From assembly GCA_029933125.1 (NCBI GenBank), contig JAOZOU010000006.1:141408-205407 (forward strand): a stretch of 64,000 bases of DNA, read 5' to 3'. Numbering within the stretch: the first letter of the stretch is position 1; each line of letters begins with the position of its first letter. A program made the position numbers and the translations under genes. The stretch is from a bacterium. Lineage in GTDB: Bacteria; Arandabacterota; Arandabacteria; Arandabacterales; Arandabacteraceae. Below, piece after piece: positions 37,180 through 57,291 of the stretch. The notes under the pieces are model-generated. The model ran no database searches, was not told where the DNA came from, and was given only the letters and a program-made list of their open reading frames with translations.

Positions 37180-37208
37180 TTGACTTTCACCTGCAAAGGT
37201 GATACGAT
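37180..37208 (+). promoter_or_regulatory. Promoter with an inverted-repeat operator in its spacer
   Basis: TTGACT at 37180-37185, 17 bases, TACGAT at 37203-37208. Inside the spacer TCACCT (37187-37192) and AGGTGA (37197-37202) form a perfect 6-bp inverted repeat around GCAA, where a bound repressor would block polymerase. It drives the thioredoxin-like selenoprotein gene. Confidence 0.6.
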
Positions 37209-37218
37209 TAGTAATCGG

Positions 37219-37249
37219 AGCGGGACGCAGGCTGGTGCGTTCCGCTTTT
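37219..37249 (+). terminator. Leader hairpin followed by short T-run (possible attenuator)
   Basis: An 11-bp stem (37219-37229 with 37236-37246, one G-U pair) with loop GGCTGG, followed by TTTG. It lies just after the expected transcription start of the selenoprotein gene, so it could be a weak terminator that attenuates, or a 5' stabilising stem. Confidence 0.45.
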
Positions 37250-37272
37250 GGCTTTTGTGGAAAGGTCTTGAC

Positions 37273-39376: not shown

Positions 39377-39405
39377 TTGACAAGCAATCGCTTTACCCTT
39401 ATGCT
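39377..39405 (+). promoter_or_regulatory. Sigma-70-type promoter of the Hdr/Nuo operon
   Basis: TTGACA at 39377-39382, 17-base spacer, TATGCT at 39400-39405, 63 bases before the ATG of the first gene. No other promoter of this quality is seen before 57.3 kb, consistent with one long operon. Confidence 0.72.
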
Positions 39406-39467
39406 CGACTTTATAGATTACGCTTTTTCTATTCAATATCTGGGAACATCTCTTCCAGGAGATTGTG

Positions 39468-40001
39468 ATGGTTCGTGAAAAGTGCAAGCACAGCTGGAAG
39501 ATGACCAATGTTCGCGATGGATTCATTGTTACAGAAAGGTGCTACCACTGTAATAAGTTGCGCGTTTTCTTTTCCTATGAGGAAGTTCCTCCCAAGGATG
39601 AATACAAGGAGGGCGAGCACTATTGGAACTACGCTGGAAGTGCTCAGTCGTTCAAATTCGACATGGAGTGTACAAAGTGTGGTAAATCAGTCTCATTCGA
39701 ATCCCTGATGGGACTTATGCACTGCGTAGGATGCAATGCCCGTTGCCACCTAAATATTCTTTCACAGATTGGTGAAATGCAGAACATTTGGCTTTTTGCT
39801 GCGCTTGCTTATCATCTTGGAAACGAGATAGATCTGCCGATTGAGAATCTGGAGGTGCTCACCGACTATTTCACTTCAAGGTTGCGTACGCCGGGTAAGA
39901 AGATTTTGGTTGTGCCCGGCTCATTAAGGCACGATCCTGATACTTGCCGTGGTGAGATGCTGAAGGATGTTGGCATGTTGAGCCTTACCCCAGAGACTTA
40001 A
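39468..40001 (+). CDS. Cysteine-rich zinc-type protein at the head of the Hdr/Nuo operon
   Basis: About 177 residues from ATG 39468 (AGGAGA upstream; GTG 39465 also possible). Three cysteine pairs or knuckles are visible: CKHSW near the start, CYHC about 20 residues on, CTKCGKSV near residue 65 and CVGCNARC near residue 88, typical of zinc ribbons or a small Fe-S site. The C-terminal third (KKILVVPGSLRHDP) has no cysteines. I do not recognise a named family. Its place as first gene of the electron-transfer operon suggests assembly, regulation or electron delivery. Confidence 0.6.
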   Translation: MVREKCKHSWKMTNVRDGFIVTERCYHCNKLRVFFSYEEVPPKDEYKEGEHYWNYAGSAQSFKFDMECTKCGKSVSFESLMGLMHCVGCNARCHLNILSQIGEMQNIWLFAALAYHLGNEIDLPIENLEVLTDYFTSRLRTPGKKILVVPGSLRHDPDTCRGEMLKDVGMLSLTPET

Positions 40002-40023
40002 TAAAAACCAAGGAGGCTGAGTC

Positions 40024-40362
40024 GTGACTGTCAAGGAACTCCAGTCCAAACTGAAACTGAAACCGCTAAACGATGTAAATGACAAGGAAATCGAGGGAGC
40101 CTTCATCTCCGATATGGTCAGTGATGTCATGGCTGGAGCACAACCTGGAAACGTGTGGGTAACAGTCCAAACCCACAAGAACATTATAGCAGCTGCAAAT
40201 CTTGTTGATATCCCTGCCATCATCGTCGTCCGCAACAAGCAGGTGCCCGAAGATACATTGCAAATGGCTGATCGGGTCGGTGTAACGGTTTTTAATACCG
40301 ATTTAGATTCATACAGCATTGCCATAAAGCTCTATGAAGCAGGCATAAAGCCCGCAGGCTAG
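40024..40362 (+). CDS. DRTGG-domain protein
   Basis: A 112-residue DRTGG-type protein, GTG start behind AAGGAGG. The fold seen is a lone DRTGG domain: ISDMVSDVMAGAQPGNVWVTVQTHKNIIAAANL, with IAAIIVVRN-like IPAIIVVRNKQVPED next. Such domains also occur in phosphotransacetylase and CBS proteins and are thought to bind nucleotides or regulate. Single-domain versions recur beside electron-bifurcating hydrogenase and NuoEF operons. A second copy lies at 55143-55499. Confidence 0.82.
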   Translation: MTVKELQSKLKLKPLNDVNDKEIEGAFISDMVSDVMAGAQPGNVWVTVQTHKNIIAAANLVDIPAIIVVRNKQVPEDTLQMADRVGVTVFNTDLDSYSIAIKLYEAGIKPAG

Positions 40363-40428
40363 TCCAGATTCACACATATAGCGGGGCCGGCTCAGCGGCT
40401 GGCTCAGCGAACAGAGGTGTGATGGGGT

Positions 40429-40794
40429 TTGCCAAAACTTGATGCCAGGAAATTGCTTGACCTGAAGGAATCCCTCAAAGCCTCAAAACAAGCAAAGCCC
40501 CTGATCGTTGTCCACATGGGAACTTGCGGAATAGCATCTGGTGCCGAAGAGGTGCTCACCTACTTGCTGGAGCTTGTGCGTGAGAGTGGCGACGACATCA
40601 TAATCAAAACCTCGGGTTGTGCTGGTCTCTGCTCGAGGGAACCCATGATCACGGTTAAGATGCCAGAGAAGCCACCTGTCAAGTACTGTCAGATTGACAG
40701 GTCGAAGGCTAAACGCATATACGCTGAACATGTGAAGGGTGGTAAGCCTGTCAGGGAATACGCTATCGGCTACGGTTGCGAAATGCTCTATTAG
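40429..40794 (+). CDS. Thioredoxin-like [2Fe-2S] ferredoxin
   Basis: A 121-residue NuoE/HndA-type [2Fe-2S] protein with the four cluster cysteines in MGTCGIASGAE and TSGCAGLCSREP and a Tyr-rich end (YAIGYGCEMLY). It would carry single electrons between the Nuo-like and partner subunits. TTG start; GTGTGATGGGG precedes it. Closely related stand-alone proteins accompany HydABC-type hydrogenases. Confidence 0.85.
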   Translation: MPKLDARKLLDLKESLKASKQAKPLIVVHMGTCGIASGAEEVLTYLLELVRESGDDIIIKTSGCAGLCSREPMITVKMPEKPPVKYCQIDRSKAKRIYAEHVKGGKPVREYAIGYGCEMLY

Positions 40795-40812
40795 CTTTCC
40801 AAGGACAAGACG

Positions 40813-41694
40813 TTGGTTGAACTTGTAGTCTTTGTTTTCGAGCAACTAGCGAAGAGACGTCAAGAGCTTCAAGAGGCATTCCAATCTCAGGGCTACAGGG
40901 TTCATGCCGCTGCCGAGAGCGCTGATCTCGTTTCGGAGATTCAAGCCCTTCGACCTCACCTCGTGGTTCTTGATCTCGACCTGCCACAGGATCGAGGTCT
41001 TGCTTTGCTCAAGAGCATCCACGATATGATGCCTTCGCTACCTGTTGTGGCAGAAACTACCAGACCGACAGTTGAGGGAGCAGTCGAGGCGATGCGGAGA
41101 GGTGCTTACAACTACGTATCCAAGCATTCACCACCTCAGGTCATCGTCGATACCGCGGCTCATGCGCTTGAGAAGGAACGGCTGCGAGTGGAAGCCCTAG
41201 TTAAGACACAGGAGAGAAGAGTTCGGTCCATAGATTATCCTGAAATGGTTGCTGAGATTGAATATATTCTTGCCAATAAGGGACACTCTGAAGCAGCCCT
41301 GATTTCGTGTCTTCAAGATATCCAGAAAGAGCTCAACTACTTGCCTCAGGATGCTCTGAAACTTGTCGCTGCTAGGGTTGGTGTGGGTCTTCCCCGTGTC
41401 TATGCGATCGCCACCTTCTACAAATCTTTCAGCCTCCGTCCGCGTGGAAGGCACCTGATACACGTGTGTCTCGGGACAGCATGCCATGTCCGTGGGGGAG
41501 CCAAGCTCCTCGAAAGCTTTGAGCGGGAGCTTGGCCTGCAAACCGGTGGCACGACTTATGACAACCGTTTCACGCTTGAGTCAGTGCGATGTGTGGGGTG
41601 CTGTGGGCTGGCACCGGTTGTCATGGTAGATGGTAAGTTTTATGGCAAAGTAACCCAGGAAAAGGTCCCCGAGATTATTCAACGCTATGATTAG
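40813..41694 (+). CDS. Response-regulator receiver domain fused to NuoE-like [2Fe-2S] subunit
   Basis: A 293-residue fusion starting with TTG. Residues about 1-125 form a CheY-like receiver: acceptor Asp54 in VVLDLDLP, Thr82/83 in AETTRPT, and Lys104 in NYVSKHSP are all present, with a single Glu at position 10 where two acidic metal ligands usually sit. Residues about 140-293 are NuoE/HoxE/HydC: helical bundle, then CLGTACHVRGG and RCVGCCGLAPVVMVDG with the four cluster cysteines. The NuoF gene overlaps its 3' end. Ordinary NuoE has no receiver, so phosphorylation or degenerate REC contacts may control electron entry. Cytosolic. Confidence 0.85.
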   Translation: MVELVVFVFEQLAKRRQELQEAFQSQGYRVHAAAESADLVSEIQALRPHLVVLDLDLPQDRGLALLKSIHDMMPSLPVVAETTRPTVEGAVEAMRRGAYNYVSKHSPPQVIVDTAAHALEKERLRVEALVKTQERRVRSIDYPEMVAEIEYILANKGHSEAALISCLQDIQKELNYLPQDALKLVAARVGVGLPRVYAIATFYKSFSLRPRGRHLIHVCLGTACHVRGGAKLLESFERELGLQTGGTTYDNRFTLESVRCVGCCGLAPVVMVDGKFYGKVTQEKVPEIIQRYD

Positions 41695-43540
41695 GAAGGC
41701 AAAACATAAGACGCCTCGTAAGACGAAGGCCAAAGTAGCAAGCAAGACAATCAACATCTGCCACGGCACATCCTGCATCGAGGCTGGTTCGGGGCAGTTG
41801 GAAGTGGCTTTTGAAGCTGCCCTGCGACACAAGAGCTTATCAGCTGATGTCAAAGTGCGACCAGGCAGGTGTATGGGATATTGTCATGTGGCGCCTGTTC
41901 TGACAATTGAACCTGATGGTGTCACCTACGGGAATGTGAAGTTGAGTGATGTAGAAAGGATCATAGACAAGCATGTGATAGGTGGGAAGATCTTGAAAGA
42001 CCTGCTTGTGCCTGCTGAACCCGCCTATCCCTCACTTCAGCCGCTTAGCAGGGCTGGATTTTTCGAGAAGCAAGTTCTTATCGTCATGCGGAACAGAGGC
42101 AGGATCGATCCCGAATCGATTGAGGACTACATCGCCAATGATGGTTATCAAGCACTGGCTAAAGCGGTCTCGGAGATGGAACCTGAGCAGGTGATTGATG
42201 AGGTCAAGCGGGCTGACCTCAGGGGTAGGGGTGGAGCTGGCTTTCCAACGGGACTCAAATGGGAGATCTGCAGGCGATCGAAGACTTCCGAAACCAAGTA
42301 CATTGTCTGCAACGCCGACGAGGGGGATCCCGGCGCCTTCATGGATAGAAGTCTACTGGAGTCAGATCCTCACGCTGTCGTCGAAGGGATGATTCTCGGC
42401 GCGTACGCAATAGGTGCCTCTCATGGTTTTGTCTACGTAAGAGAAGAATATCCCATAGCCCTTGAGCGCATAGTTGGAGCCATCGAGGCTGCGAGGGACT
42501 ATGGATTGCTGGGAGAAGGCATCCTTGGCTCTGATTTCTCCTTTGATATATCGGTGGTGAGGGGTGCGGGAGCCTTTGTTTGCGGTGAAGAGACTGCTCT
42601 GATGGCTTCGATCGAGGGTAAGGATGGTCGACCCAGACCTCGTCCTCCTTTTCCAGCCGAAAGGGGGTTATGGGGGTGTCCAACCAATATCAACAACGTT
42701 GAGACATGGGCAAATGTACCGCCAATCATCCTGAAAGGTGGTGAGTGGTATGCCTCCATAGGAACTGCGAAGAGCAAAGGAACAAAGGTCTTCTCGCTGG
42801 TGGGCAAGGTGAAGAACACAGGTCTGATTGAGGTCCCGATGGGAACAACTTTGAGGGAGATCATCTACGACATCGGTGGCGGTGTATTGCGTGATCGAAA
42901 GCTCAAGGCTGTTCAGACGGGAGGTCCTTCAGGAGGATGCATACCAGCTTCCCTCATAGACCTTCCTGTTGATTATGAAGAGCTCAGCAAGGCGGGCTCA
43001 ATCATGGGTTCAGGTGGACTCATCGTCATGGACGAAGATACCTGTATGGTTGATGTTGCCCGCTATTTTGTGAGGTTCCTTGAAGAGGAATCCTGTGGCA
43101 AGTGTACCCCATGCCGTGAAGGCCTTACACGGATGAGGCAAATCCTTGATAGAATCGTTGAGGGCAAGGGCAAGAAGGGCGATATCGAGCTTCTTGAAGC
43201 GCTTGCCAAGGTTGTCAAGGATGCATCGCTATGTGGTCTCGGGGCAACAGCTCCCAATCCCGTATTGAGCACGCTAAAATATTTCCGCGACGAGTATGAA
43301 GCTCACGTCTATAGAAAGAGATGCCCGGCCAAGGTATGTAAGGCACTCATTGTCTACAGAGTTATCCCTGAGAAATGCACAGGTTGCCAAAGGTGTGTGC
43401 GTGCCTGTCCTGTTGGGGCAATATCAGGTCCAAGGGCTCAACCTCACAATCTTGATCAATCTTTGTGTATAAAATGTGGAGCGTGCTACGAGGTGTGTAA
43501 ATTCGATGCTATTGCCGGCGATGCTATCTATGTGGAGTAA
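41687..43540 (+). CDS. NuoF-like NAD(P)H-binding flavoprotein subunit (HydB/HndC type)
   Basis: A 617-residue subunit that oxidises NAD(P)H or reduces NAD(P)+ through FMN. Domains: N-terminal thioredoxin-like [2Fe-2S] (Cys25, Cys30, Cys62, Cys66), FMN/NADH core with GRGGAGFPTG (residues 180-189) and CNADEGDPGAFMDR, SLBB-type region, cluster N3 motif ESCGKCTPCREG, and a C-terminal double [4Fe-4S] ferredoxin (CTGCQRCVRACP, CIKCGACYEVC). This layout is that of electron-bifurcating hydrogenase HydB and NfnB-like partners, not of complex I NuoF (about 430 aa). The 3' neighbours are HydA-like and Hdr genes. Confidence 0.93.
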   Translation: MIRKAKHKTPRKTKAKVASKTINICHGTSCIEAGSGQLEVAFEAALRHKSLSADVKVRPGRCMGYCHVAPVLTIEPDGVTYGNVKLSDVERIIDKHVIGGKILKDLLVPAEPAYPSLQPLSRAGFFEKQVLIVMRNRGRIDPESIEDYIANDGYQALAKAVSEMEPEQVIDEVKRADLRGRGGAGFPTGLKWEICRRSKTSETKYIVCNADEGDPGAFMDRSLLESDPHAVVEGMILGAYAIGASHGFVYVREEYPIALERIVGAIEAARDYGLLGEGILGSDFSFDISVVRGAGAFVCGEETALMASIEGKDGRPRPRPPFPAERGLWGCPTNINNVETWANVPPIILKGGEWYASIGTAKSKGTKVFSLVGKVKNTGLIEVPMGTTLREIIYDIGGGVLRDRKLKAVQTGGPSGGCIPASLIDLPVDYEELSKAGSIMGSGGLIVMDEDTCMVDVARYFVRFLEEESCGKCTPCREGLTRMRQILDRIVEGKGKKGDIELLEALAKVVKDASLCGLGATAPNPVLSTLKYFRDEYEAHVYRKRCPAKVCKALIVYRVIPEKCTGCQRCVRACPVGAISGPRAQPHNLDQSLCIKCGACYEVCKFDAIAGDAIYVE

Positions 43541-43546
43541 GGTGGA

Positions 43547-44197
43547 ATGAAGCGTGAAGATAGTATGCGAATAACCATTGATGGGCGCAGGAGAAGAGCT
43601 GAGAGAGGGCAGACAATTCTTGAGGTTGCTCGTGAAGCAGGGATTGAAATCCCAACCCTGTGCTATCATGAAGCACTCACGCCCTGGGGAGCATGTAGGT
43701 TATGTGTTGTCGAGACCAGCATGGGGGGTAGGACACGCATCGTTGCCTCCTGTGTTACGCCTGCTGAGGATGGAATGGTTGTTAGGACTGACACCGATAG
43801 GATCAGGGATATACGCAAGATGATAATAACTCTGCTTCTTGCACGCTGCCCTGGAATTGAGATTCTTAAGAGCTATGCCAGGCAATTCGGAATTAAGAGG
43901 ATTCCGTTTGAGAAAGGTAGTGAAGATTGTTTTCTCTGTGGCATGTGTGTAAGAGCTTGTTCTGAGATTGTGGGTGTGGGCGCTATCGATTTCGCCTATC
44001 GGGGAGTAAAGACCGACGTTGAACCGCCCTTCGGGGTTACCTCTAGTGCATGCATAGGGTGTGGAACATGTACAACCATATGCCCAGCAAGAACTCTGAC
44101 ACTTGAGAAGGTTTTTGCCAGACGGACAATGCATTGCAAAAAGGAAGAGATCGTGGGCAGATGCACAATTTGTGAAAGCTACTATTCGGGAGTCTGA
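43547..44197 (+). CDS. NuoG/HydA N-terminal-like ferredoxin ([2Fe-2S] plus [4Fe-4S] clusters)
   Basis: A 216-residue protein with a plant-type [2Fe-2S] domain (TLCYHEALTPWGACRLC, then CVTPA), a remnant of the His-Cys helical region (RKMIITLLLARCPG), and two [4Fe-4S] motifs (CFLCGMCVRACSEI, CIGCGTCTTICPA) with a Cys-rich tail. It matches the N-terminal electron-wire half of HydA and NuoG but lacks the H-cluster or molybdenum domain. Thus it feeds NuoEF electrons to something else, most likely the HdrA modules encoded next. ATG 43547 has AAGGTGG upstream. Confidence 0.87.
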   Translation: MKREDSMRITIDGRRRRAERGQTILEVAREAGIEIPTLCYHEALTPWGACRLCVVETSMGGRTRIVASCVTPAEDGMVVRTDTDRIRDIRKMIITLLLARCPGIEILKSYARQFGIKRIPFEKGSEDCFLCGMCVRACSEIVGVGAIDFAYRGVKTDVEPPFGVTSSACIGCGTCTTICPARTLTLEKVFARRTMHCKKEEIVGRCTICESYYSGV

Positions 44198-45859
44198 ATG
44201 CCCAAAGCAGCAAGTAAAGACAAGGCATCTTCGAAGGTTGGTATCATAATTTCCCAGTTTGAGGGCGATCTGGCTCATATATTTGATCTTCCTGCAATTT
44301 CAAAAGCTGCAAAAGCCAATCCACAGGTTGGTGCTTTTGAGATTCAATCCTTTCCCTCCTCGAGAAAGCAGGTTGCCGAAATAGCCGAGCGCCTTACCAG
44401 AAAGGGAATTAAGAGGTTTGTGGTAGCCGGCTGCAGCGAGCGTCTTTATGGGAAAGTCTTTCGAGACACCTTTGCCCAGTTTGGTGTACCAAGGACAATG
44501 ATTGAATTTGCAGACATCCTTACAGGTCGAGTTTGCCGAAAGGGAGCCAAGGCGGACACTTCGACTGCGATAGAATTGATAAACCTGGCACTTGCTAAAG
44601 TCACAACGGCGTTGGAACCAGAGATAATTTCGGTTGATATAAAACCTCTGGCTGTTGTCATAGGTGGTGGCATTGCTGGGATTTCAGCTGCTTTGGGCCT
44701 GGCTACGCGTGGAGTAAAAGTTAAGATCATAGAGCGCGGCGACCGTCTTGGCGGACGTCTCAATCTCCTTAACAGGATCTTTCCTACCTACAGTCGTGCA
44801 TCTCAGTTTCTCGAGGAGCAGGTTAAAAATCTTAAAGAGGCTGGTGTTGATGTCCTTACGGGTGTTGAGCCCATCGGTCTTGAAGGACACGTCGGCAACT
44901 ACACACTTGAGCTCGCGGATGGAAGTAGCATTGATTGTGGGGTAATCATTGTTGCTACCGGTGCTGATCTTTTTGTTCCAAAGGGAATGTATGGCTATGG
45001 AGAAAGACAAAATGTAATCACACAGCTCGAGCTCGAAAGGAAACTCCTCAACAATGAGAAGCCTGGCTCCAACATAGTCATGATTCAGTGTGTTGGCTCA
45101 CGTAACGACGAGCGTCCATATTGTTCCCGTATATGCTGCACAGCTTCAATCAAGAACACCATTACAATTAAGGAGCAATTTCCCAAGGCACGCCTAACTG
45201 TGCTTTCGAGAGGAATTGCTGAATATGCTGGCGATCTTGACAGAGCAAGGGACATGGGGGTTGAGATAATCCGCTACTCGCCCGAGAGGCCTCCGCTTAT
45301 CAGGGAAAACATGGTTGAGGTCTTCGATGAGATATCAGAAATGGAAACCCATATTCCTTTTGACCTTGTGGTGCTTGCCGTGCCTATGGTGCCTTCTGAA
45401 TCTAATCGTAAGCTGGCGGAAATTCTACGCATTCCCCTTGATCCCTATGGTTTCATGATCGAGCCGCACCTGCGCCTAAGACCTGAAGAGCGGGCGCCAA
45501 GAGGCATTTTCGTTGCTGGAACCGTCCACTGGCCTGCAACAATAACTGAATCAGTTGTTCAAGGGTATGGAGCCGCCTCAAGGGCTTTCGAGCTCTTGCG
45601 AGCTGGCAAGATCACACGTGAGGCTATAACAGCAAGGGTTGTTGAGGAGCTTTGCAGAGGATGCAGGCGGTGCTATGACGCCTGTGAGCACAGCGCAATA
45701 GAAATGGTGGAAGATGACATACCTGTTGCGAGGGTCGTAAAGATCCACTGCACGGGATGTGGAGTTTGCGTCTCTGTCTGCCCATCTGGGGCGATGACCC
45801 TGCCGGAGATTACGCCTCAGAGTCTGAAAGCCACCGTTGAAGTCTTGAGGAGGAACTAG
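44198..45859 (+). CDS. HdrA-like FAD/[4Fe-4S] protein 1
   Basis: A 553-residue HdrA relative. The N-terminal domain (about 1-140) has lost the usual CNCG cysteine box. From residue about 148 a FAD-binding thioredoxin-reductase-like domain begins (VVIGGGIAGISAALGLATRG) with the inserted CVGSRN and YCSRICC motifs, typical of HdrA. It ends with two [4Fe-4S] motifs (CRGCRRCYDACEH, CTGCGVCVSVCP). ATG immediately follows the stop of the NuoG-like gene. HdrA flavins can split electron pairs between high- and low-potential acceptors. Which modules of this operon bifurcate is unknown. Confidence 0.85.
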   Translation: MPKAASKDKASSKVGIIISQFEGDLAHIFDLPAISKAAKANPQVGAFEIQSFPSSRKQVAEIAERLTRKGIKRFVVAGCSERLYGKVFRDTFAQFGVPRTMIEFADILTGRVCRKGAKADTSTAIELINLALAKVTTALEPEIISVDIKPLAVVIGGGIAGISAALGLATRGVKVKIIERGDRLGGRLNLLNRIFPTYSRASQFLEEQVKNLKEAGVDVLTGVEPIGLEGHVGNYTLELADGSSIDCGVIIVATGADLFVPKGMYGYGERQNVITQLELERKLLNNEKPGSNIVMIQCVGSRNDERPYCSRICCTASIKNTITIKEQFPKARLTVLSRGIAEYAGDLDRARDMGVEIIRYSPERPPLIRENMVEVFDEISEMETHIPFDLVVLAVPMVPSESNRKLAEILRIPLDPYGFMIEPHLRLRPEERAPRGIFVAGTVHWPATITESVVQGYGAASRAFELLRAGKITREAITARVVEELCRGCRRCYDACEHSAIEMVEDDIPVARVVKIHCTGCGVCVSVCPSGAMTLPEITPQSLKATVEVLRRN

Positions 45860-45861
45860 AG

Positions 45862-46272
45862 ATCGCAGCAAAAATCACAATTGTAGCCTGTAAATGGCAT
45901 CCGCTAACAGCCATGGAGAATGCTGCCAAGGATGGCTTCTGCCTCAACCCGGGCACAAGTGTTATTCCTGTCAAATGTAGCGGGCTCATAAAGGTTTCAT
46001 TCCTTCTTAGACTTTTTGCCAAAGGCTCCGACGGAGTTCTTGTTCTTGGTTGTCTCGAACAGGATTGTAGATACTTCAATGGCAGTATTCGTTGCGGCAA
46101 AATTGTGGATGAGACTCGCAAGATACTTGAGCTTGCTGGAATCGATGCGACAAGGCTTGGCTTCCATCTCATCTCAGAGAGCCAGGGGAGAGAGTTCAAG
46201 AAGATATTCAGACGATTCGTAAAGCAGTTTAGCAAGCGAGGGCGCCGTGTCGCTACGTCAAGCAGTCGTTAG
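45862..46272 (+). CDS. MvhD-like electron-transfer subunit 1, probable ATC start
   Basis: A protein of the MvhD/F420-nonreducing hydrogenase delta-subunit family, which binds a [2Fe-2S] cluster and links HdrA to its electron donor. Reading back from the ATG at 45913, the frame contains KITIVACKWHPLTAMENAAK, the family N-terminus, so the protein must start upstream. AGGAGG at 45848-45853 is eight bases from ATC 45862-45864, and no ATG, GTG or TTG lies between it and an upstream in-frame stop. Other features are VKCSGLI and LGCLEQDCRYF. About 136 residues. The 3' end overlaps the HdrC-HdrB gene by 26 bases. Confidence 0.78.
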   Translation: MAAKITIVACKWHPLTAMENAAKDGFCLNPGTSVIPVKCSGLIKVSFLLRLFAKGSDGVLVLGCLEQDCRYFNGSIRCGKIVDETRKILELAGIDATRLGFHLISESQGREFKKIFRRFVKQFSKRGRRVATSSSR

Positions 46273-47386
46273 GTCTCGAGCATATCTTTGCCTTGAATGC
46301 GGTATCTGTACAGGGAGCTGCCCCGTATCACGATTCAATGCAGCATATTCACCGCGCCTGACGGTTGAAAGAGCACTTCTACTTGATGAAGAAGAAAGCC
46401 TCCATGATCATGAGATTTGGGCATGCCTTACCTGTGGGACTTGTGATGTGCGGTGTCCATCGACTGTTGACTTCACTGGCTTCATGAGGGATTTAAGAGA
46501 GCGAGCGAGAAAGGCTGGAAATGATGGTATCTGTACTCATGCCGAGACAATTGAAGCAGTTCTGGATCTACAACTTTCCCCCAACTTCAGAAGATCTACT
46601 TCCTGGTTAAGGTCCTTACAAACCTCATCCAGAGGAAAGGTTTACTACTTTGGTGGATGCCTTCCTTTCCTCGATGTGATTTTCGAGGATATAGGTTTTG
46701 AAGGGACTAAAATTGGAAGATCAAGTGTGCGCCTTCTCAATGCACTAGGTATAAGACCTGCGGTAAGCTGTGATGAGGTTTGCTGTGGGCATGATGCCTA
46801 TTGGACTGGACGGATTGATCTTGTCAGGACATTGGCAGATATCAATGTGAAGGCTATTCGCAGGACTGGCGCGAAACAGGTGATCTTCTCATGTCCGGAA
46901 TGCTTCTACATGTTCAAGCATATCTATCCCGACATAGTTGGTGATCTCGGTTTCGAACCTGTCTACATTCTTAATGTCCTTCTTGAGGCGATCGATAAGG
47001 TCAAGTTTAAGCCTGTGAATGCGAAGGTAACCTATCAGGATTCGTGTCGTCTTGCTCGGATTGAAGGAATGGTTACCGAACCCAGACAGGTTCTTCAGGC
47101 TCTGCCCGATGTTGATTTTGTTGAGATGCAGCGTATGGGTAAGGATGCCATTTGCTGTGGTTCGAGCAATTGGGTTAGCTGCTCAAGGGTTAACAAGCAG
47201 ATACAGATTGATCGCCTCACCGAAGCTGCTTCAACTGGTGCCAAGATCTTGGTGACATCCTGTCCCAAGTGCAATATCCACCTGAGATGTGCCTTGAGGG
47301 ATGAAGATTGTAAAGTTGATATTGACGTAATTGACCTGATGGTGCTTCTTGCAAGTCACCTGGGAGGTGGAAAGCGTGGAACCTAG
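46247..47386 (+). CDS. HdrC-HdrB fusion protein
   Basis: A 379-residue protein. Residues about 1-95 are HdrC, with two [4Fe-4S] motifs [12 protein letters not shown] and [12 protein letters not shown]. Residues about 125-379 are HdrB, with two CCG domains: GGCLPF with CDEVCCG and CPECF, then DSCRLAR with CCGSSNW and CPKC. In methanogens these cysteines bind noncubane [4Fe-4S] clusters that reduce the CoM-S-S-CoB heterodisulfide; bacterial relatives act on other thiols or unknown carriers. GTG start overlapping the MvhD-like gene, and overlapped in turn by the HdrA selenoprotein gene. Confidence 0.88.
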
Positions 47387-48671: not shown

Positions 48672-48674
48672 AAG

Positions 48675-50366: not shown

Positions 50367-50368
50367 CT

Positions 50369-51151
50369 ATGGATTTTAGACCAAACATATTGGCTTTCTG
50401 CTGCAACTGGTGAGCTTACAGTGCAGCAGACCTCGCCGGGGTAGCGAGGCTTCAATATCCACCCGATGTGAGAGTGGTCAGAGTGATGTGTTCGGGTAGA
50501 GTAGATCCGCTCATGGTTGCAGAAGCATTTGCAGCGGGTAGTGATGGGGTCTTCATAGGCGCTTGCAAGCGAGGTGAATGCCACTATTCCACAGGCAATC
50601 TTCATGCAGAAGCAAGAGTGGAGCTCCTAAAGCATGTGCTTGAAGCAGCTGGTCTGAGTCCTGAGCGGGTTGTCTTACGAATGATGTCAAGCGCTGAAGG
50701 TAACAAGTTCGTTGAGTTTACGACTGAGTTTCAAAGGGTAATCACCGAGCTGGGTCCCCTCGGTCAAGCTGAGGGAATGGACAGGACGACTTTGGCGATA
50801 AAGCTGAGTGCCATAAGGGAAGCCCTTGGAGGAAGAAAGCTTCGCTGGGTTGTTGGGAAAGTGGTTGAATTCAAAAACAATGGCAATCTCTATGGGGAAA
50901 GGTTCACGGACCATGAGATAAAACGCCTTCTCCAGGAGGTTGGCATGGATGAGGTCAGGATAAGAGAAATAATTGAAAGGCTTAAGGATAAGCCTAAGTC
51001 GGTAAAGCAACTCAGCGAAGAGATCAATGCACCTTCAAGAGTGATTTTGAGACAGATGGCTGATCTTCGTAGAATGGGGCTTGCTGATATTGCTAGCGTG
51101 GATGGCAGAACACCTATATGGCAGCTCAAGGTGGATGCAAGGTATGAATAA
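50369..51151 (+). CDS. mvhD: MvhD-like selenoprotein with C-terminal winged-helix domain
   Basis: From ATG 50369 to TAA 51151, 260 residues, with TGA at 50411-50413 read as Sec15. The N-terminus MDFRPNILAFCCNW, then U-A-Y-S-A-ADLAG, is the MvhD sequence (F-C-C-N-W-C-S-Y-A-G-A-D) with Sec for the fifth-motif Cys, as in methanococcal VhuD. VRVMCSGRVDP, CKRGECHY and GRNKF-like EGNKFVEF follow. The MvhD part ends near residue 140. Residues about 195-260 form a winged helix (KPKSVKQLSEEI, SRVILRQMADLRRMGLADI) that does not belong to the family core. Its stop overlaps the next gene. Electron conduit between NuoEF-type donor and HdrA. Confidence 0.88.
50431..50449 (+). promoter_or_regulatory. SECIS element of the MvhD-like selenoprotein
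   Basis: CCTCGC (50431-50436) pairs perfectly with GCGAGG (50444-50449) around loop CGGGGTA. The loop begins 23 bases after the UGA. Loop G residues are consistent with bacterial SECIS. Confidence 0.78.
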
Positions 51152-52835
51152 GACTGACCAGAAGCGGTTGGTAATAGTGATCGGTGGTGGAATTGCTGGG
51201 CTTCAAGCAGCTCTTGAAGTTGCATCCTCCGGCAGTGATGTCGCTCTGGTTGAGGAATCACCTTTCCTTGGTGGATTGTTCTTTAAGGAGGAATCTTTGA
51301 CAGTTGGCAATATGCCGGCACTCTGCTTTGCCTCAAAACTCATAAATCAGGTCCTATCTCACCCGAGGATAAGAGTACTTACAAATACGAAGGTTGAGCG
51401 TATTCGAAGCGGCGATGGAAAGGTAAGGATTGATGTTAAGATTCTGCCTTCAAGAGTTAATTCCGAGTGCACTTCATGTGGTGAATGTTTGCTTGTTTGT
51501 CCTATTAAGCCATACGATAGCTACAACGAGGGCCTCATGCTGAGGACAGCTATTGATTTTGCAGGACCTCGTAGCTTTGGTGGAACATATAACATTGAAA
51601 AAGAAACCCCAGCATGCCAGGAACGTTGTCCAGCTCACATTGACATAAGGAGATATGTGGGGCTCATTGCAACAGGCCGCTACGAGGAAGCTATCAAAGT
51701 AATTCGTGAGAGGAATCCTTTCCCAGCGGTCTGCGGACGCATCTGTCCTCATCCATGTGAGTCTGTCTGCAATCGCGGAAGACAGGACGAACCAGTCGCG
51801 ATCGATGCTCTCAAGAGGTTTGTCTCTGAATACGAAATAGCTATGCGCAAGGCAGGAAAGTTTGTTCCTCCTAAGCCCAAGAAGGATAGAAAGATAAAGG
51901 TTGCTGTGGTTGGGGCTGGACCTGCTGGTCTAACTGTAGCTCATGATCTTGCTCTGGAAGGTTTCAGGGTGACAGTTTTCGAGGCAGCACCAGTACCTGG
52001 TGGCATGATGCACCTAGGCATTCCTGAGTACCGGCTTCCCAGGGACATACTCATGAGTGATGTTGAATACATAAGAGACCTTGGGGTGGAAATAAAGCTC
52101 AATACCCCCCTGACCAGGGAATTCACAGTCGATGACATCTTCAAGCAGGGCTATAAGGCTGTCTTCCTTGGAATCGGTGCCTATAAGGGGCTCAAGCTCA
52201 GGGTTCCCGGTGAAGATGAATACGAAGGATTTCTCGACTGCATAGAATTCTTAAAAAGGGTCAATCTTGGCGATAAGACCAAGCCAGGTAATAAGGTCAT
52301 CGTAATCGGGGGTGGCAATTCAGCAATCGATTCAGCCCGAACAGCTTTGCGTCTCGGATGCGATGAGGTCACCATACTCTACAGGAGATCACGCAAGGAG
52401 ATGCCTGCAAATCCATGGGAGGTCGAAGCTGCAGAACATGAAGGCGTCAAGATCCATTACCTTGCAGCTCCTGTGAAAATTCTTGGCAAGAATGGTAGGG
52501 TTACTGGCATGGTCTGCACAAAGATGAGACTTGGCAAGCTTGACGCCAGTGGCAGAAGAAGGCCTATCCCAATCGAAGGTTCGGAATTTGAAGTTGAGGC
52601 TGATCTTATAATCCCCGCTATAAGCCAGCAACCTGATCTCTCGTTCCTGCCGGAAAACCATGGCTTTGAGATCTCACGCTGGAATTCCTTCCTTGTTGAT
52701 GAAGCCACTATGGCTACAAATCGTGAGGGAGTTTACGCTGGTGGTGATGCTGTTACAGGTCCGGCAACTGTAATTAAGGCTATCCAGGTTGGCCATGTAG
52801 CCGCCAATTCTATCAGGGAGTACCTTAGCAAGTGA
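51144..52835 (+). CDS. HdrA N-terminal half fused to a GltD/NfnB-like NAD(P)H oxidoreductase
   Basis: About 563 residues from ATG 51144, overlapping the MvhD-like gene. Residues 1-140 are the front of an HdrA: VIGGGIAGLQAALEVA, then GGLFFKEESLTVGN in place of the cysteine loop of active HdrA, and CTSCGECLLVCPIKP. From residue about 155 it becomes GltD (glutamate-synthase small chain/NfnB-like): CQERCPAHIDIRRY, CGRICPHPCESVC, FAD site VAVVGAGPAGLTVAHDLAL, NADP site VIVIGGGNSAIDSARTALRLG. The HdrA reading then resumes in the next gene (CSVTCCRRS and so on), so the GltD module appears inserted between HdrA halves and the gene split. It likely binds NAD(P)H. Confidence 0.85.
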   Translation: MNKTDQKRLVIVIGGGIAGLQAALEVASSGSDVALVEESPFLGGLFFKEESLTVGNMPALCFASKLINQVLSHPRIRVLTNTKVERIRSGDGKVRIDVKILPSRVNSECTSCGECLLVCPIKPYDSYNEGLMLRTAIDFAGPRSFGGTYNIEKETPACQERCPAHIDIRRYVGLIATGRYEEAIKVIRERNPFPAVCGRICPHPCESVCNRGRQDEPVAIDALKRFVSEYEIAMRKAGKFVPPKPKKDRKIKVAVVGAGPAGLTVAHDLALEGFRVTVFEAAPVPGGMMHLGIPEYRLPRDILMSDVEYIRDLGVEIKLNTPLTREFTVDDIFKQGYKAVFLGIGAYKGLKLRVPGEDEYEGFLDCIEFLKRVNLGDKTKPGNKVIVIGGGNSAIDSARTALRLGCDEVTILYRRSRKEMPANPWEVEAAEHEGVKIHYLAAPVKILGKNGRVTGMVCTKMRLGKLDASGRRRPIPIEGSEFEVEADLIIPAISQQPDLSFLPENHGFEISRWNSFLVDEATMATNREGVYAGGDAVTGPATVIKAIQVGHVAANSIREYLSK

Positions 52836-55138
52836 AGAAACCAAAGTTCATACCCGAATACAAAGACATACCTTCAGAACGGCAAAAGATGCCCGAGCTC
52901 CCCATTGAGGAGAGAAAGCTCAACTTCAAAGAGGTCGAGCTCGGCTTTACAGAGGAGATGGCACTTAAGGAGGCAGCTAGGTGCCTCAGCTGCAGGCGAT
53001 GTATTGGCTGTGGATTGTGTCTGGCTGAATGCGATCCCAAGGCGATTGTCTATGATCAAGAACCTGAGCGTTTGTTGCTTGAGGGCGATGCCCTGATCTA
53101 TACAGGTGATGGCAAGATCTATAATCCGGATCGCGATTCCGCTCTCGGTTATGTCACCTGTACGAATGTGATAACGAGCTATGAATTCGAACGTCTCATC
53201 AGCCCAACTGGACCGTTCGGGGGCTATCTCCTGCGGCCATCGGATGGCGAGATTCCCCAAAGCATCGCATTCATACAATGCATTGGCTCGAGAAACGAGG
53301 CGATTGGAGCTGAATTCTGCTCGGTAACATGCTGTCGGCGCAGCCTCCTCCAGGCAAAGCGGGCGAGACAGCTTAGAGGTGATGTCAATGTCACCATCTT
53401 TCACAAAGGGCTTCGGCCCGTGGGTAAGGATGGTGAGATTCTTCTTGAGGAGATAGCGAAAAGTGACTGGGTCGAGCTAATTGAAGAGGAGGTGAAGGAG
53501 GTAAGTGAGGGTGAGGGTGGGAGTCTCAAGGTTAGATTCGGGGATGGTGGTGAGAGGAAATTTGACCTCGTTGTGCTTGCAGTTGGCATTTGGGCTCAGG
53601 GTGAGTTCAGAAAGTATGCGAAAGCTGCAGGTGGCTCCGTAAACAGATTTGGTTTTGTTGAGTGTAACCTTGAAAGGCTCATGAGCGAAGAGAGCGGTGT
53701 GGCTTTCGCCGGAGCTGCTTGTGGTCCAGCTTTGCCTGAATTTTCAATTGTAGGAGCGATGGCGGCTGCCTGCCTCCATCTTGCGCCTGGTGCTCAGGAG
53801 AAGTTTAGGAGTCTGAGTGGTGAATCTGTCGTGATCTATGGCTGCGCCTATGGGCTCAACTCAGCAGGTGTGGATGAAAGTCTTGTGAAAAGTCTCGAGA
53901 CAAATGGCTTCAAGTTTGGCGGATTCTATTCTTATCTGTGCCATAAGGACGGCCGAAAGGCACTTGCTCAGGGTCTTGAAGAGGCTGCTCACATTGTAAT
54001 ACTTGGATGTCGCAAAGGAAGCCATGAAGCCCTCTTTGAGAGCATCCTCAATCTTGAGCAAGGAAGTATTGCCATAGTCGATGCCAAAGAAATCAATGGC
54101 AATCCTCTTGAGGCTGTCAAACGAGCCCTTGACTTGAGTCAAATCCCCAAGTCCAAGGAGAAACCGCCGCTTTCCGTAAGTATCATCGGAGGTGGCATAT
54201 CAGGTCTTGCTGCTGCAAAGGGTCTTTTGCGAAATGACTTGGAAGTTCATCTTATTGAGAAGAGCGCTGATATTGGCCGAGGCTTAAGGCTTGCCGCAGC
54301 GAATGAGGGTATTGAACAGCAAAAGGTGGATGCCTTCATCGATTCCGTCACAAGCCATCCCAACATAAAGTTATACAAGAATGCTCACCTCCTGAGCTAT
54401 CGAAAGGACGGTTCGAAATGTATCCTCTCGCTTGAATCAGACGGGGGCGAGGTTACGCTTGAATCTGGAGCAGTTTTGGTCGCAACGGGATCAGGTCGCT
54501 TTGATCCGGCACAGGCAGGGTATTCCGAGAGCTCAAATGTCCTTACTCAGGATGACTTTGCTGAGCTCTTGAATGGAGGCGAGGTTAAGGCGAAGCATAT
54601 CATCATGATTCAGTGTATTGGTGCACGGGATGGGCAACATCGCTATTGCAGTCGCTTCTGCTGCAGGCAAGCTCTACAGAATGCGCTTACCTACAAAGCC
54701 AATGTGGAGGATGGCAGGGTCACAATCATCCATAAGGGATTGCGGCTTTACGGATTTGAGGAAATTCTCCTGGGCGAAGCTCTTGATAAGGGGATTGAAT
54801 TTGTGAGTGCAGAGGGGAAGGTTGACATCTCAGGAGAGGGTCCTCTCAGGGTTAAGGCTCGAAGCAAGAATGAAGAGTTAGAGCTTGAAGGCGATATGGT
54901 TGTTCTCTCAGTCGCCCATGACAACACAGCGATACACACTATGCTTGCTGAGAAGACTGGGATTCACATCGACGATCTAGGGTTTATAGAGACACCAGAA
55001 GCAAGTGATCCCTTTAGAACGAGTGAAGATGGGATTTTTGTTTGTGGCTTTGCACGTAAGCCCATGGTTGCCGAAGAGGCTTTTCTTGATGGATTGGCAG
55101 CAGCCACGGTCGTCATAAGACGACTCAGGGCAGGGTGA
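52832..55138 (+). CDS. Fused HdrA C-terminal half plus second HdrA-like module
   Basis: A 768-residue protein; the GTG start overlaps the previous stop. Residues about 1-75 carry the GltD-type end and a [4Fe-4S] ferredoxin (CLSCRRCIGCGLCLAECDPKA). About 80-320 is the HdrA C-terminal half (ALGYVTCTNVITSYEFERL, RPSDGEIPQSIAFIQCIGSR, CSVTCCRR). About 325-440 looks like an HdrA N-terminal domain without its CNCG. About 450-768 is another FAD module (VSIIGGGISGLAAAKGLL, CIGARD, YCSRFCC, CGFARKPMVAEEAFLDG). The protein therefore continues the HdrA begun in the preceding gene and adds a second. Confidence 0.82.
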   Translation: MKKPKFIPEYKDIPSERQKMPELPIEERKLNFKEVELGFTEEMALKEAARCLSCRRCIGCGLCLAECDPKAIVYDQEPERLLLEGDALIYTGDGKIYNPDRDSALGYVTCTNVITSYEFERLISPTGPFGGYLLRPSDGEIPQSIAFIQCIGSRNEAIGAEFCSVTCCRRSLLQAKRARQLRGDVNVTIFHKGLRPVGKDGEILLEEIAKSDWVELIEEEVKEVSEGEGGSLKVRFGDGGERKFDLVVLAVGIWAQGEFRKYAKAAGGSVNRFGFVECNLERLMSEESGVAFAGAACGPALPEFSIVGAMAAACLHLAPGAQEKFRSLSGESVVIYGCAYGLNSAGVDESLVKSLETNGFKFGGFYSYLCHKDGRKALAQGLEEAAHIVILGCRKGSHEALFESILNLEQGSIAIVDAKEINGNPLEAVKRALDLSQIPKSKEKPPLSVSIIGGGISGLAAAKGLLRNDLEVHLIEKSADIGRGLRLAAANEGIEQQKVDAFIDSVTSHPNIKLYKNAHLLSYRKDGSKCILSLESDGGEVTLESGAVLVATGSGRFDPAQAGYSESSNVLTQDDFAELLNGGEVKAKHIIMIQCIGARDGQHRYCSRFCCRQALQNALTYKANVEDGRVTIIHKGLRLYGFEEILLGEALDKGIEFVSAEGKVDISGEGPLRVKARSKNEELELEGDMVVLSVAHDNTAIHTMLAEKTGIHIDDLGFIETPEASDPFRTSEDGIFVCGFARKPMVAEEAFLDGLAAATVVIRRLRAG

Positions 55139-55142
55139 AGGC

Positions 55143-55499
55143 ATGAAACTCACGGAGATAAAAGAACTTCTTGATGCTGAAGTCATTACGGGTGCTAACC
55201 GTCTCGAAGATGATTTTCAGGAGGTATGCAGCGCTGATCTCATGAGTGACGTTCTAGCTTTTGCAACGCCAGGCACGATACTTGTGACAGGTCTGACAAA
55301 TGTGCAATCGGTTATAACCGCTCACGTCGCTGAGGTTGGAGCAATTATCTATATCAGGGGCAAGCACCCTGAAGAGGATGCAATCAAGCTAGCTAAACAG
55401 AAAAATCTGCCGCTTCTGGCAAGCCCCTTATCAATGTTTGAAGCATGCGGTCGACTTTATGCGAAGGGGCTAAAATCGGGAAGTAATACTCCAAAGTGA
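55143..55499 (+). CDS. DRTGG-domain protein 2
   Basis: A 118-residue single DRTGG domain, homologous to the 40024-40362 protein: VCSADLMSDVLAFATPGTIL and GAIIYIRGKHPEEDAIKLA align with ISDMVSDVMAGAQPGNVW and AIIVVRNKQVPEDTLQMA. ATG four bases after the HdrA gene. Together with the next two genes it makes the DRTGG, RsbT-like, hydrogenase-like trio found near bacterial HydABC loci. Confidence 0.82.
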   Translation: MKLTEIKELLDAEVITGANRLEDDFQEVCSADLMSDVLAFATPGTILVTGLTNVQSVITAHVAEVGAIIYIRGKHPEEDAIKLAKQKNLPLLASPLSMFEACGRLYAKGLKSGSNTPK

Positions 55500-55930
55500 T
55501 GGAAGATGAAGTGCTATTTTTCCAGGAATTCTCAATAATGGGTAAGGATTTCTCAAATGCGGGGACAGTCTCGACACAGATCAAGGCGATACTCAAGGAG
55601 ATTGGCTTTGACCCCGTCATCGTTAGAAGAGCTGCAATAGCAGCCTATGAGGCAGAGATGAATGTTGTGATGTATGCTGATCGCGGCGTGGTCAGGCTAA
55701 GGGTCACTCCACATAAGATAAACATAGAGCTCGAGGATGAAGGCCAGGGGATTGAGGACATTGAACTTGCCATGCAAGAGGGTTATTCAACAGCAACTCC
55801 CGAGATGAGAGAAATGGGTTTCGGGGCGGGGATGGGGTTGCCGAACATAAAGAGAAATTCCGATGAGTTTGAGATAACCTCAGAACGTGGCAAAGGTACA
55901 AGACTCAACATAGTGATTAACGCTCGATAG
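55499..55930 (+). CDS. RsbT/RsbW-like GHKL ATPase (anti-sigma-factor type)
   Basis: A 143-residue histidine-kinase-type ATP-binding protein: N box AAYEAEMNVVMYADRG, G1 box ELEDEGQGI, G2 box MGFGAGMGLPNIKR, and the closing GKGTRLNIVI. The N-box Asn is present, so ATP binding is likely. RsbW-type proteins phosphorylate anti-anti-sigma factors; no STAS partner is in this window. The stop of the DRTGG gene overlaps its start. Proteins of this kind recur in hydrogenase operons with a role not yet defined. Confidence 0.85.
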   Translation: MEDEVLFFQEFSIMGKDFSNAGTVSTQIKAILKEIGFDPVIVRRAAIAAYEAEMNVVMYADRGVVRLRVTPHKINIELEDEGQGIEDIELAMQEGYSTATPEMREMGFGAGMGLPNIKRNSDEFEITSERGKGTRLNIVINAR

Positions 55931-55934
55931 GGTT

Positions 55935-57206
55935 ATGGAGAAATACTATCATCCAATCAAGTTCGTAGAAGAGCGATGTCAGGGAAGAATGAAATGCATG
56001 CGGGTTTGCCCAACACAGGCAATACGTGTGAAGCAGGGTAAGGCTAGATTGATTGAGGACCTATGTGTTGATTGTGGTGAGTGCATGAATGTTTGCCCCA
56101 GCGGTGCGATAGTGCCCTTGACGGATCCCTTCACTCGTTCTATGGATTTCAAGTACAAGGTAGCACTTCCATCGCCTGTGCTTTTTTCTCAATTCAGGCC
56201 AGACGTTGATCCGAGGAAAGTCGTAATCGCATTGAAACGGATTGGCTTCGACTATGTTTGCGATGTTTCTCGGGCATGCAGAGAAATCACCATAGCTCTT
56301 GAGGAATTTCTCGCAACCTATCGTGGTAGGCTTCCCCTGATTTCTTCCTTCTGCCCAACAGTTGTGAGATTGATTCAGGTGAAGTATCCTGATCTTACCG
56401 AACTTGTTGTTCCGATAGATGTTCCCAGAGAGATAGCTGCTCGCGATTTCAAGCACAATCTTGCACAGAAACTTGGTGTTGACATACAGGAGATAGGCAT
56501 CATCTATATAACAACATGCCCAGCGAAGATAGTCTCGATAAAGCAGCCAGCAGAGAAGGAGAGATCCTGGATAGATGGAGCGATTTCGCTTATTGATGTC
56601 TTTGCTCCGCTTTTCTCTGCTGTTAGCGATGTCAAAGATGAAGACATAAGGGAGGAGGAAGTTGGAGAATTCACTTTTGATGCTGGATGGTCAATGCTTG
56701 GAGAGATGACGCATCTTCTTGGCTCGGAACGCTCGATCGCAGTTTCAGGTATGAGCGATGTCACCAAGGTGCTCGATGATATAGAAAGCTCGAAGCTCAG
56801 GGATATTGACTTTGTTGAGCTTTCCTCCTGCCTAGGTGGATGCATTGGCGGGTCCCTTGTGGTTGAGAATATGTATGTTGCCAGGAACAATCTCATCAAG
56901 CTCCTCGAGAAATTTCGGGGTACCACAACCGTCGACAGGAATGAGGTACTTGATAGATACAAGAGGGGATATTATTTTCTTGAACGTAAACTTGCACCGC
57001 GGCCGCTTAGGCCACTCGATCCTGATGTAGCCAAGGCTATTGAGAAGAAGAAGAAAAAGGATGCTATCTATGAGTCGCTCCCTAAGATAGATTGTGGCTG
57101 CTGTGGGGCGCCGACTTGCTTGGCATTTGCTGAGGACATAGTTCGTGGATATGCCAACCTTGAGGATTGTATTTATATGGGAGGTGTGAAACGTGGGCAA
57201 GGGTGA
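55935..57206 (+). CDS. [FeFe]-hydrogenase large-subunit-like protein with degenerate H-cluster motifs and a C-terminal Fe-S domain
   Basis: A 423-residue protein. Two [4Fe-4S] motifs begin it (CMRVCPTQAI, CVDCGECMNVCPSG). The hydrogenase-like core has weakened H-cluster signatures: SSFCPTVVRLI where TSCCPAW is normal, TTCPAKIVSI for MPCxxKK, and ELSSCLGGCIGGS for EVMACPGGCxxGGG. A final Cys-rich domain follows (DCGCCGAPTCLAFAEDIVRG). It probably does not make or use H2; such proteins are thought to be sensors or electron-transfer adaptors near true hydrogenases. It follows the RsbT-like gene by four bases. Confidence 0.8.
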   Translation: MEKYYHPIKFVEERCQGRMKCMRVCPTQAIRVKQGKARLIEDLCVDCGECMNVCPSGAIVPLTDPFTRSMDFKYKVALPSPVLFSQFRPDVDPRKVVIALKRIGFDYVCDVSRACREITIALEEFLATYRGRLPLISSFCPTVVRLIQVKYPDLTELVVPIDVPREIAARDFKHNLAQKLGVDIQEIGIIYITTCPAKIVSIKQPAEKERSWIDGAISLIDVFAPLFSAVSDVKDEDIREEEVGEFTFDAGWSMLGEMTHLLGSERSIAVSGMSDVTKVLDDIESSKLRDIDFVELSSCLGGCIGGSLVVENMYVARNNLIKLLEKFRGTTTVDRNEVLDRYKRGYYFLERKLAPRPLRPLDPDVAKAIEKKKKKDAIYESLPKIDCGCCGAPTCLAFAEDIVRGYANLEDCIYMGGVKRGQG

Positions 57207-57291
57207 TAGGCGTACAAGGAGAGGTAAGATTTTCCAGGGAACTACAGGAAAGAGTCGACCCAAGAAGAAGAAAAAGAAGAAGAAAGCCTAG
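57193..57291 (+). CDS. thx: 30S ribosomal protein bTHX
   Basis: A 32-residue, lysine/arginine-rich protein: it opens V(M)GKGDRRTRRGKIFQG and ends in a lysine run. This is the bTHX signature (M-G-K-G-D-x-x-T-x-x-G-K-I), a small 30S head protein found in Thermus, Bacteroidota and relatives. GTG start with GGGAGGTG six to seven bases upstream; its first 14 bases overlap the end of the hydrogenase-like gene. It supports an affiliation with the FCB group and shows that the operon ends in a housekeeping gene. Confidence 0.88.
   Translation: MGKGDRRTRRGKIFQGTTGKSRPKKKKKKKKA

Follow-up and report, generated by a model that had tools for sequence, protein, structure and literature searches.

What does a bacterium encode when genes of the NuoEFG, Hdr, MvhD and GltD types stand together in a single row? 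This question is raised by an operon of an Arandabacteraceae genome (3.23 Mb, 96.7% complete; GenBank assembly GCA_029933125.1), which lies in a 64,000-nucleotide stretch of contig JAOZOU010000006.1 (positions 141,408 to 205,407), hereafter the window. The operon is real and consists of 17 plus-strand genes at positions 39465-57206 of the window. Its junctions range from -26 to +22 bp, apart from a single gap of 66 bp, in agreement with the tight or overlapping junctions described in the initial annotation of this DNA. The gene content given there also stands: Pfam and NCBIfam profile matches, used with published domain definitions and PDB-chain alignments, identify NuoE, NuoF, a short NuoG-like protein, five HdrA modules, an HdrC-HdrB fusion, two FlpD/MvhD proteins and GltD. 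We consider it fairly likely that the operon encodes a Type 2 Bfu bifurcating enzyme that uses a multi-HdrA hub as its third-substrate side ("Hdr-Bfu"), accompanied by a regulatory cassette.

The Bfu core and the Hdr modules

The HydABC-like bifurcating family, Bfu, is defined by the domains of its BfuB, BfuC and BfuA subunits (PMC9304861), and the NuoF, NuoE and NuoG-like proteins of the operon contain these domains. NuoE/BfuC is fused to a receiver domain (40813-41694; PF00072 and PF01257). NuoF/BfuB (41687-43540), assigned by Pfam and PDB-chain alignment, carries an FMN/NADH site and clusters B1-B5 and contains every domain that the Bfu definition requires of BfuB (FMN PF01512, SLBB PF10531, NADH_4Fe-4S PF10589 and Fer4). 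Bifurcating HydB-type chains can be aligned with NuoF over its full length (790 bits to 7t2r_B), and the B5 and B3/B4 cluster motifs of NuoF align with theirs. Clusters B2-B5 are missing from non-bifurcating homologues. Five ligands are named for the bifurcation-specific B2 cluster (PMC8880783), and NuoF retains four of them, C438, H525, C531 and C536. The third subunit, BfuA (43547-44197), is only 216 amino acids long and best matches 9mqx chain A (247 aa) in the PDB; as in that chain, the His-Cys3 region is devoid of its ligands. A Type 2 BfuA has a 2Fe-2S and a 4Fe-4S cluster and lacks A3/A5 and a catalytic domain. BfuA of the operon displays this pattern, with its remaining clusters assigned to A2/A4 by position. 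The features read from the sequence thus fit a Type 2 Bfu, and a coupled NAD(H)/ferredoxin activity is predicted.

How might the Hdr modules contribute to such an activity? HdrA1 (44198-45859), HdrA2 (47376-48671) and HdrA3 (48675-50366) are followed by HdrA4, which is split around an inserted GltD, and by HdrA5, whose domains are permuted. HdrA2 is the most canonical of the five and the nearest to the structurally known HdrA (432 bits to 5odc_A). K409 and E356 are named as key residues for HdrA bifurcation (PMC12054007), and both are kept in three of the five modules (HdrA1, HdrA2 and HdrA3) of the operon and of the relatives that were compared. Leu takes the place of K409 in HdrA4, and Gln does so in HdrA5; the HdrA4 position varies among relatives, and its Lys is kept in a Zixibacteria locus (L087). 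The bifurcation reading of the catalytic genes is favored because the NuoEFG-like trio has the Bfu-defining domains and three HdrA modules keep the flavin-bifurcation residues.

HdrA4 extends over two adjacent genes. The first encodes its N-terminal half and the inserted GltD (51144-52835), and the second encodes the GltD tail and the C-terminal half of HdrA4, followed by HdrA5 (52832-55138). HdrA halves thereby flank GltD, which is the arrangement described for type III HdrA (PMC12054007). The second Rossmann motif of this GltD is GGGNSA (GxGxxA), so that a preference for NADP may be expected by the rule given in that paper. The HdrC-HdrB fusion (46247-47386) contains two [4Fe-4S] motifs and two CCG domains. 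The features of soluble HdrABC are all present in the operon: HdrA with flavin adenine dinucleotide and E356/K409, HdrC with two [4Fe-4S] clusters and HdrB with two CCG domains, the last of which suggest a disulfide-type acceptor. Of the FlpD/MvhD proteins, MvhD1 (45844-46272; start codon uncertain) has lost the second Cys of its CxWC motif, and MvhD2 (50369-51151) carries a C-terminal extension.

Gene order, single-complex model and known relatives

The genome-neighborhood comparison bears out the operon as a conserved unit. The host belongs to Candidatus Eisenbacteria, the label borne by its relatives in a scan of named genomes. All 17 genes occur in the same order in G004, a genome of another genus of the family, and this order can also be traced on fragmented contigs of G001-G003 and G006. 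Much or most of the order is also found in Zixibacteria (L087 and L088), Methylomirabilota (L079), G119 (L139) and other Eisenbacteria-labelled genomes. Since it is complete in G004 and mostly kept in other lineages, the gene order is more than chance.

Does this conserved order reflect one enzyme or two? The operon may be shared by at least two enzymes, a Bfu NADH/ferredoxin oxidoreductase and a multi-HdrA(BC)-MvhD enzyme, which would be co-regulated through common ferredoxin and NAD(P)H pools. In G007, a class-level relative, the Hdr block stands without adjoining NuoEFG genes and without the second DRTGG, ATPase and hydrogenase-like genes that close the operon here, and NuoEFG is located on another contig. 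With this split layout, the Hdr block may well be an enzyme separate from BfuABC. It weighs against the preferred reading, as does the replacement of the fifth B2 ligand, C476, by Val in NuoF; position 476 is semi-conserved in known members. The host genome itself has a second Hdr-MvhD block (L069) that lacks NuoEFG and lies beside a 2-oxoacid:ferredoxin oxidoreductase cluster, assigned by sequence reading. However, the short Type 2 BfuA lacks a catalytic domain of its own and thus needs a partner subunit, HdrA and MvhD genes come straight after BfuA in several lineages, and Bam-Bfu, which has been purified, is an earlier case of a single complex (PMC9304861, PMC13328260). We therefore regard the two-enzyme explanation as unlikely, though worth keeping in view.

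Under the preferred reading of a Type 2 Bfu enzyme with an HdrA hub, the FMN/Fe-S site of BfuABC would be the place where electrons are exchanged with NAD(H) and ferredoxin. Mid-potential electrons would reach the HdrA flavins through BfuA and the selenium-containing MvhD, and the flavins of HdrA1-3 would divide electrons between, or combine them from, a low-potential route via ferredoxin and a route of higher potential via HdrC-HdrB. GltD in HdrA4 may serve as an additional NAD(P)(H) port, and HdrA4 and HdrA5 may act as electron relays. The two DRTGG proteins, the ATPase, the NuoE receiver domain and the hydrogenase-like protein, probably without a [2Fe] subcluster, would constitute a redox-sensing cassette. 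The initial annotation had proposed a large electron-bifurcating complex. Bifurcation remains the best-supported reading of the catalytic genes, whereas the assembly of all genes into a single complex is what we infer, as are the electron route, its direction, the acceptors and the sensor role. A bolder version, which we hold to be doubtful, is one megacomplex with stacked bifurcation, in which a Bfu site, three bifurcating HdrA flavins and an NAD(P)H port would work together under the control of a hydrogenase fold that lacks [2Fe] and senses redox state, not H2, for many Bfu enzymes. Should the gene products form one complex, few soluble bifurcating enzymes would be larger, and it would offer a natural test of the proposal that Bfu and HdrA sites can work in series, an arrangement argued so far for benzoyl-CoA reductase.

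The nearest kin of the catalytic core, compared through published subunit descriptions, is Bam-Bfu, which also has an MvhD-type subunit. BamBCDEFGHI of Geobacter and Desulfosarcina shares the Type 2 BfuABC and HdrA/HdrB-type subunits (PMC9304861, PMC13328260) and thus already combines BfuABC with Hdr-type subunits. Unlike Bam-Bfu, the operon has no tungsten BamB/BamC and contains five HdrA modules, a GltD insertion, two MvhD proteins and a sensor cassette; selenocysteine (Sec) is known in BamE (PMC5109826) and is predicted here in HdrA2 and MvhD2. That the operon itself encodes a benzoyl-CoA reductase was rejected, as BamB/BamC is not in it. A related proposal is a Bam-like aryl-CoA/tungsten enzyme, in which a catalytic AOR-family pair on contig C152 docks on the Hdr and Bfu subunits. 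The subunit types of BamDEFGHI are similar (PMC9304861, PMC13328260), and a single AFOR protein, next to an Fe-S protein, is encoded in the genome. Nevertheless, this pair resides on another contig, operon homologues were not found beside it, and AOR is never part of the conserved operon in the loci read, which makes this explanation very improbable. The AFOR-family protein, the only one of the host, is found at 7917-10186 of L070 (G000:C152), preceded by a 4Fe-4S protein.

Other systems share smaller portions of the operon. Nfn-Bfu (Sporomusa-type StnABC and Thermococcus sibiricus; PMC9304861) shares the BfuBC core linked to a GltD/NfnB-type NAD(P)H domain, and Nfn-Bfu-type operons (L134, L135, L138, L142 and L144) adjoin a related sensor cassette; in contrast to the operon here, Nfn-Bfu has its NADP domain on BfuA itself and no Hdr block. 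HdrABC-MvhD complexes (methanogen HdrABC-MvhAGD and Moorella HdrABC-MvhD-MetVF) share HdrA, HdrC/HdrB with two CCG domains and MvhD, whereas the operon lacks MvhA/G, FdhAB and MetVF and has BfuABC as the donor side. Type III HdrA of ANME-1 and Bathyarchaeota shares the GltD within HdrA (PMC12054007) but differs from HdrA4, which is split over two genes, has lost K409 and has GxGxxA instead of GxGxxG; such a split form is not mentioned in the available text. Putative units of Desulfotignum phosphitoxidans, noted in 2013, contain NuoEFG, MvhD and HdrA in one unit, as here, but are smaller, and the available text of PMC4046663 makes no mention of activity, GltD or a sensor cassette. No description of such a system was found in the literature on Eisenbacteria at the level of titles and abstracts. 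The novelty first claimed for the locus is accordingly narrower: the joining of NuoEFG with Hdr, Sec and GltD within HdrA is known in each case, and the size, the combination and the attached cassette are unusual. We regard the operon as a new conserved combination of known parts.

The hydrogenase-like protein and its cassette

The initial annotation stated that the operon lacks any hydrogenase subunit. This statement is incorrect because the last gene encodes FeHyd (55935-57206), which matches Fe_hyd_lg_C (PF02906) at 96 bits, carries a C-terminal FeS domain and is the sole PF02906 protein found in the host genome. The top 50 listed PDB fold matches of its AlphaFold model are all [FeFe]-hydrogenases; with a moderate predicted local distance difference test score of 62, the model informs on the fold and not on the active site. 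Group D [FeFe]-hydrogenases have two N-terminal [4Fe-4S] clusters, an H-domain and a Cx2Cx4Cx16C tail, lack a PAS domain and have C299 replaced and M353 changed to Ser/Thr (PMC8163306). FeHyd shows all of these features, with Phe at C299 (CpI numbering) and Thr at M353. It is preceded by a second DRTGG-domain protein (55143-55499; Pfam) and by a histidine-kinase-like ATPase, HATPase (55496-55930; PF13581/PF02518), in which a DHp or sensor domain was not found. The first DRTGG-domain protein (40024-40362; PF07085, E 1.3e-5) is encoded near the start of the operon. TamHydS, a group D (M2e) enzyme with a histidine-kinase-like ATPase as its neighbor, shares the two [4Fe-4S] clusters, the H-domain and the tail; FeHyd also resembles it in the missing PAS domain, the loss of C299, the M353 to Thr change, the HATPase neighbor and the Bfu operon alongside (PMC8163306). 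FeHyd differs from TamHydS in that HydG and HydF are not detected in its genome and its partner enzyme is not a hydrogenase.

Does FeHyd turn over or sense H2? In a hydrogen-linked enzyme, FeHyd would be a catalytic H2 site that couples H2, NAD(H), ferredoxin and Hdr, or else an H2 sensor with a complete H-cluster. The four cubane-ligand Cys residues and the active-site Lys of FeHyd are invariant in 12 relatives, a conservation more in keeping with a pocket for an H-cluster than with a plain sensor, which counts against the sensor reading. Group D enzymes are also able to hold an H-cluster and show slow H2 turnover (PMC8163306). However, HydG has no match in the host genome and its relatives (G000-G007), and HydF has none above the cut-off in the host genome or its family, although the maturases could sit in unassembled sequence of the 96.7% complete genome; HydE was not searched. 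An assembled H-cluster with its maturases available, which also belongs to the description of group D, is therefore not what the HydF and HydG search finds in the host. HydG is likewise not above the cut-off in eight further genomes with parts of the operon, nor in 14 of the 28 FeHyd-carrying genomes tested. The Phe at C299 also argues against H2 chemistry. G119 does have HydG, yet the FeHyd encoded in its Hdr operon (L139, 1217-2551) has Ser at one cubane-ligand Cys and Ile in place of the Lys. The hydrogen-linked explanation is thus quite improbable, and since neither HydG nor HydF turned up, H2-linked bifurcation through FeHyd was dropped as the preferred explanation. FeHyd is probably a redox sensor without the [2Fe] subcluster, with a regulatory rather than a catalytic role.

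A sensor role is also consistent with the company that FeHyd keeps. Orthologues are present in 38 of 386 sampled genomes, a count that includes the relatives of the window, and in the loci read, FeHyd is accompanied by DRTGG and HATPase genes across many genera, often also by NuoE/NuoF. The cassette genes adjoin Nfn-Bfu-like genes (BfuA and GltD) in L134/L162, L135/L163, L144/L164, L142/L165 and L138, so the cassette is not tied to a single third substrate. The FeHyd partner resembles Nfn-Bfu in G335, G311, G163, G234 and G261, and HydG is missing from the first four of these genomes. Proteins commonly labelled putative H2-sensing hydrogenases are present in many genomes without detectable HydG, beside Bfu enzymes that do not use H2, and reliance on PF02906 alone as the mark of a hydrogenase would give a false picture of H2 metabolism in these lineages. 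In the same-genus genome G001 (L007/L040), the FeHyd match, when extended to full length, crosses a TAA near its end.

Selenoproteins, transcription signals and further redox loci

Two selenoproteins had been claimed for the operon, and the claim is supported for HdrA2 and MvhD2 because the UGA is conserved at their Sec sites, a hairpin resembling a selenocysteine insertion sequence (SECIS) follows on the 3' side and the host genome encodes SelB (398 bits). The UGA codons, at 47541-47543 in HdrA2 (context NDCSIU) and at 50411-50413 in MvhD2 (context CCNWU), are in frame both here and in all relatives in which the motif was located. The SECIS-like hairpins are GGATGCC-GGTC-GGCATCC at 47564-47581 and CCTCGC-CGGGGTA-GCGAGG at 50431-50449, and their exact stems pair in 98% (HdrA2) and 100% (MvhD2) of cells, compared with at most 67% for slid stems. 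Each hairpin shows a single compensatory change, and shuffles match this covariation in 55 of 500 (HdrA2) and 76 of 500 (MvhD2) cases; covariation alone is therefore weak and at most supportive. An RNAalifold fold of the MvhD2 region pairs across the UGA and was set aside in favor of the short hairpin on the 3' side of that codon. Earlier work has already described Sec in HdrA, MvhD and BamE (PMC5109826). In L084 (6063-7234), the HdrA2 homologue seems to be frameshifted soon after the UGA, perhaps through an assembly error. A possible third selenoprotein is encoded immediately upstream of the operon (37180-39288): it is Omp28-like, carries a secretion-system sorting tail and has an in-frame UGA (TNVGCGUAACL).

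The single promoter assumed at first found no backing. The sigma-70-like match TTGACA-17-TATGCT (39377-39405, plus strand) scores 10/12, the top score, which is shared by three sites in all, and promoter-like sites in the operon region are not above chance (18 found against 17.6 +/- 4.6 expected in the promoter/terminator scan), so that a single promoter or transcript is unproven. Rfam and tRNA scans of the 64-kb window gave no matches. The first gene of the operon encodes a conserved Cys-rich protein of unknown function (39465-40001), which has the same position in G004, G006, L134, L135, L138 and L139, and the third encodes a thioredoxin-like [2Fe-2S] ferredoxin (40429-40794; NCBIfam fdxn_Clost, E 3.9e-5, under the family cut-off).

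The host genome contains further loci with related genes. In the second Hdr-MvhD block (L069; G000:C171:131000-150999), one HdrA has a UGA at the Sec site. L155 (G000:C171:150000-169999) has a further set of NuoE, NuoF, HdrA and HdrB-type genes in which NuoE is fused to a part of HdrA, with neighbors read as EtfAB and acyl-CoA dehydrogenase. A third NuoEFG trio (L154; G000:C76:266000-285999) directly adjoins a glutamate-synthase-domain protein and is possibly a glutamate synthase-linked Bfu.

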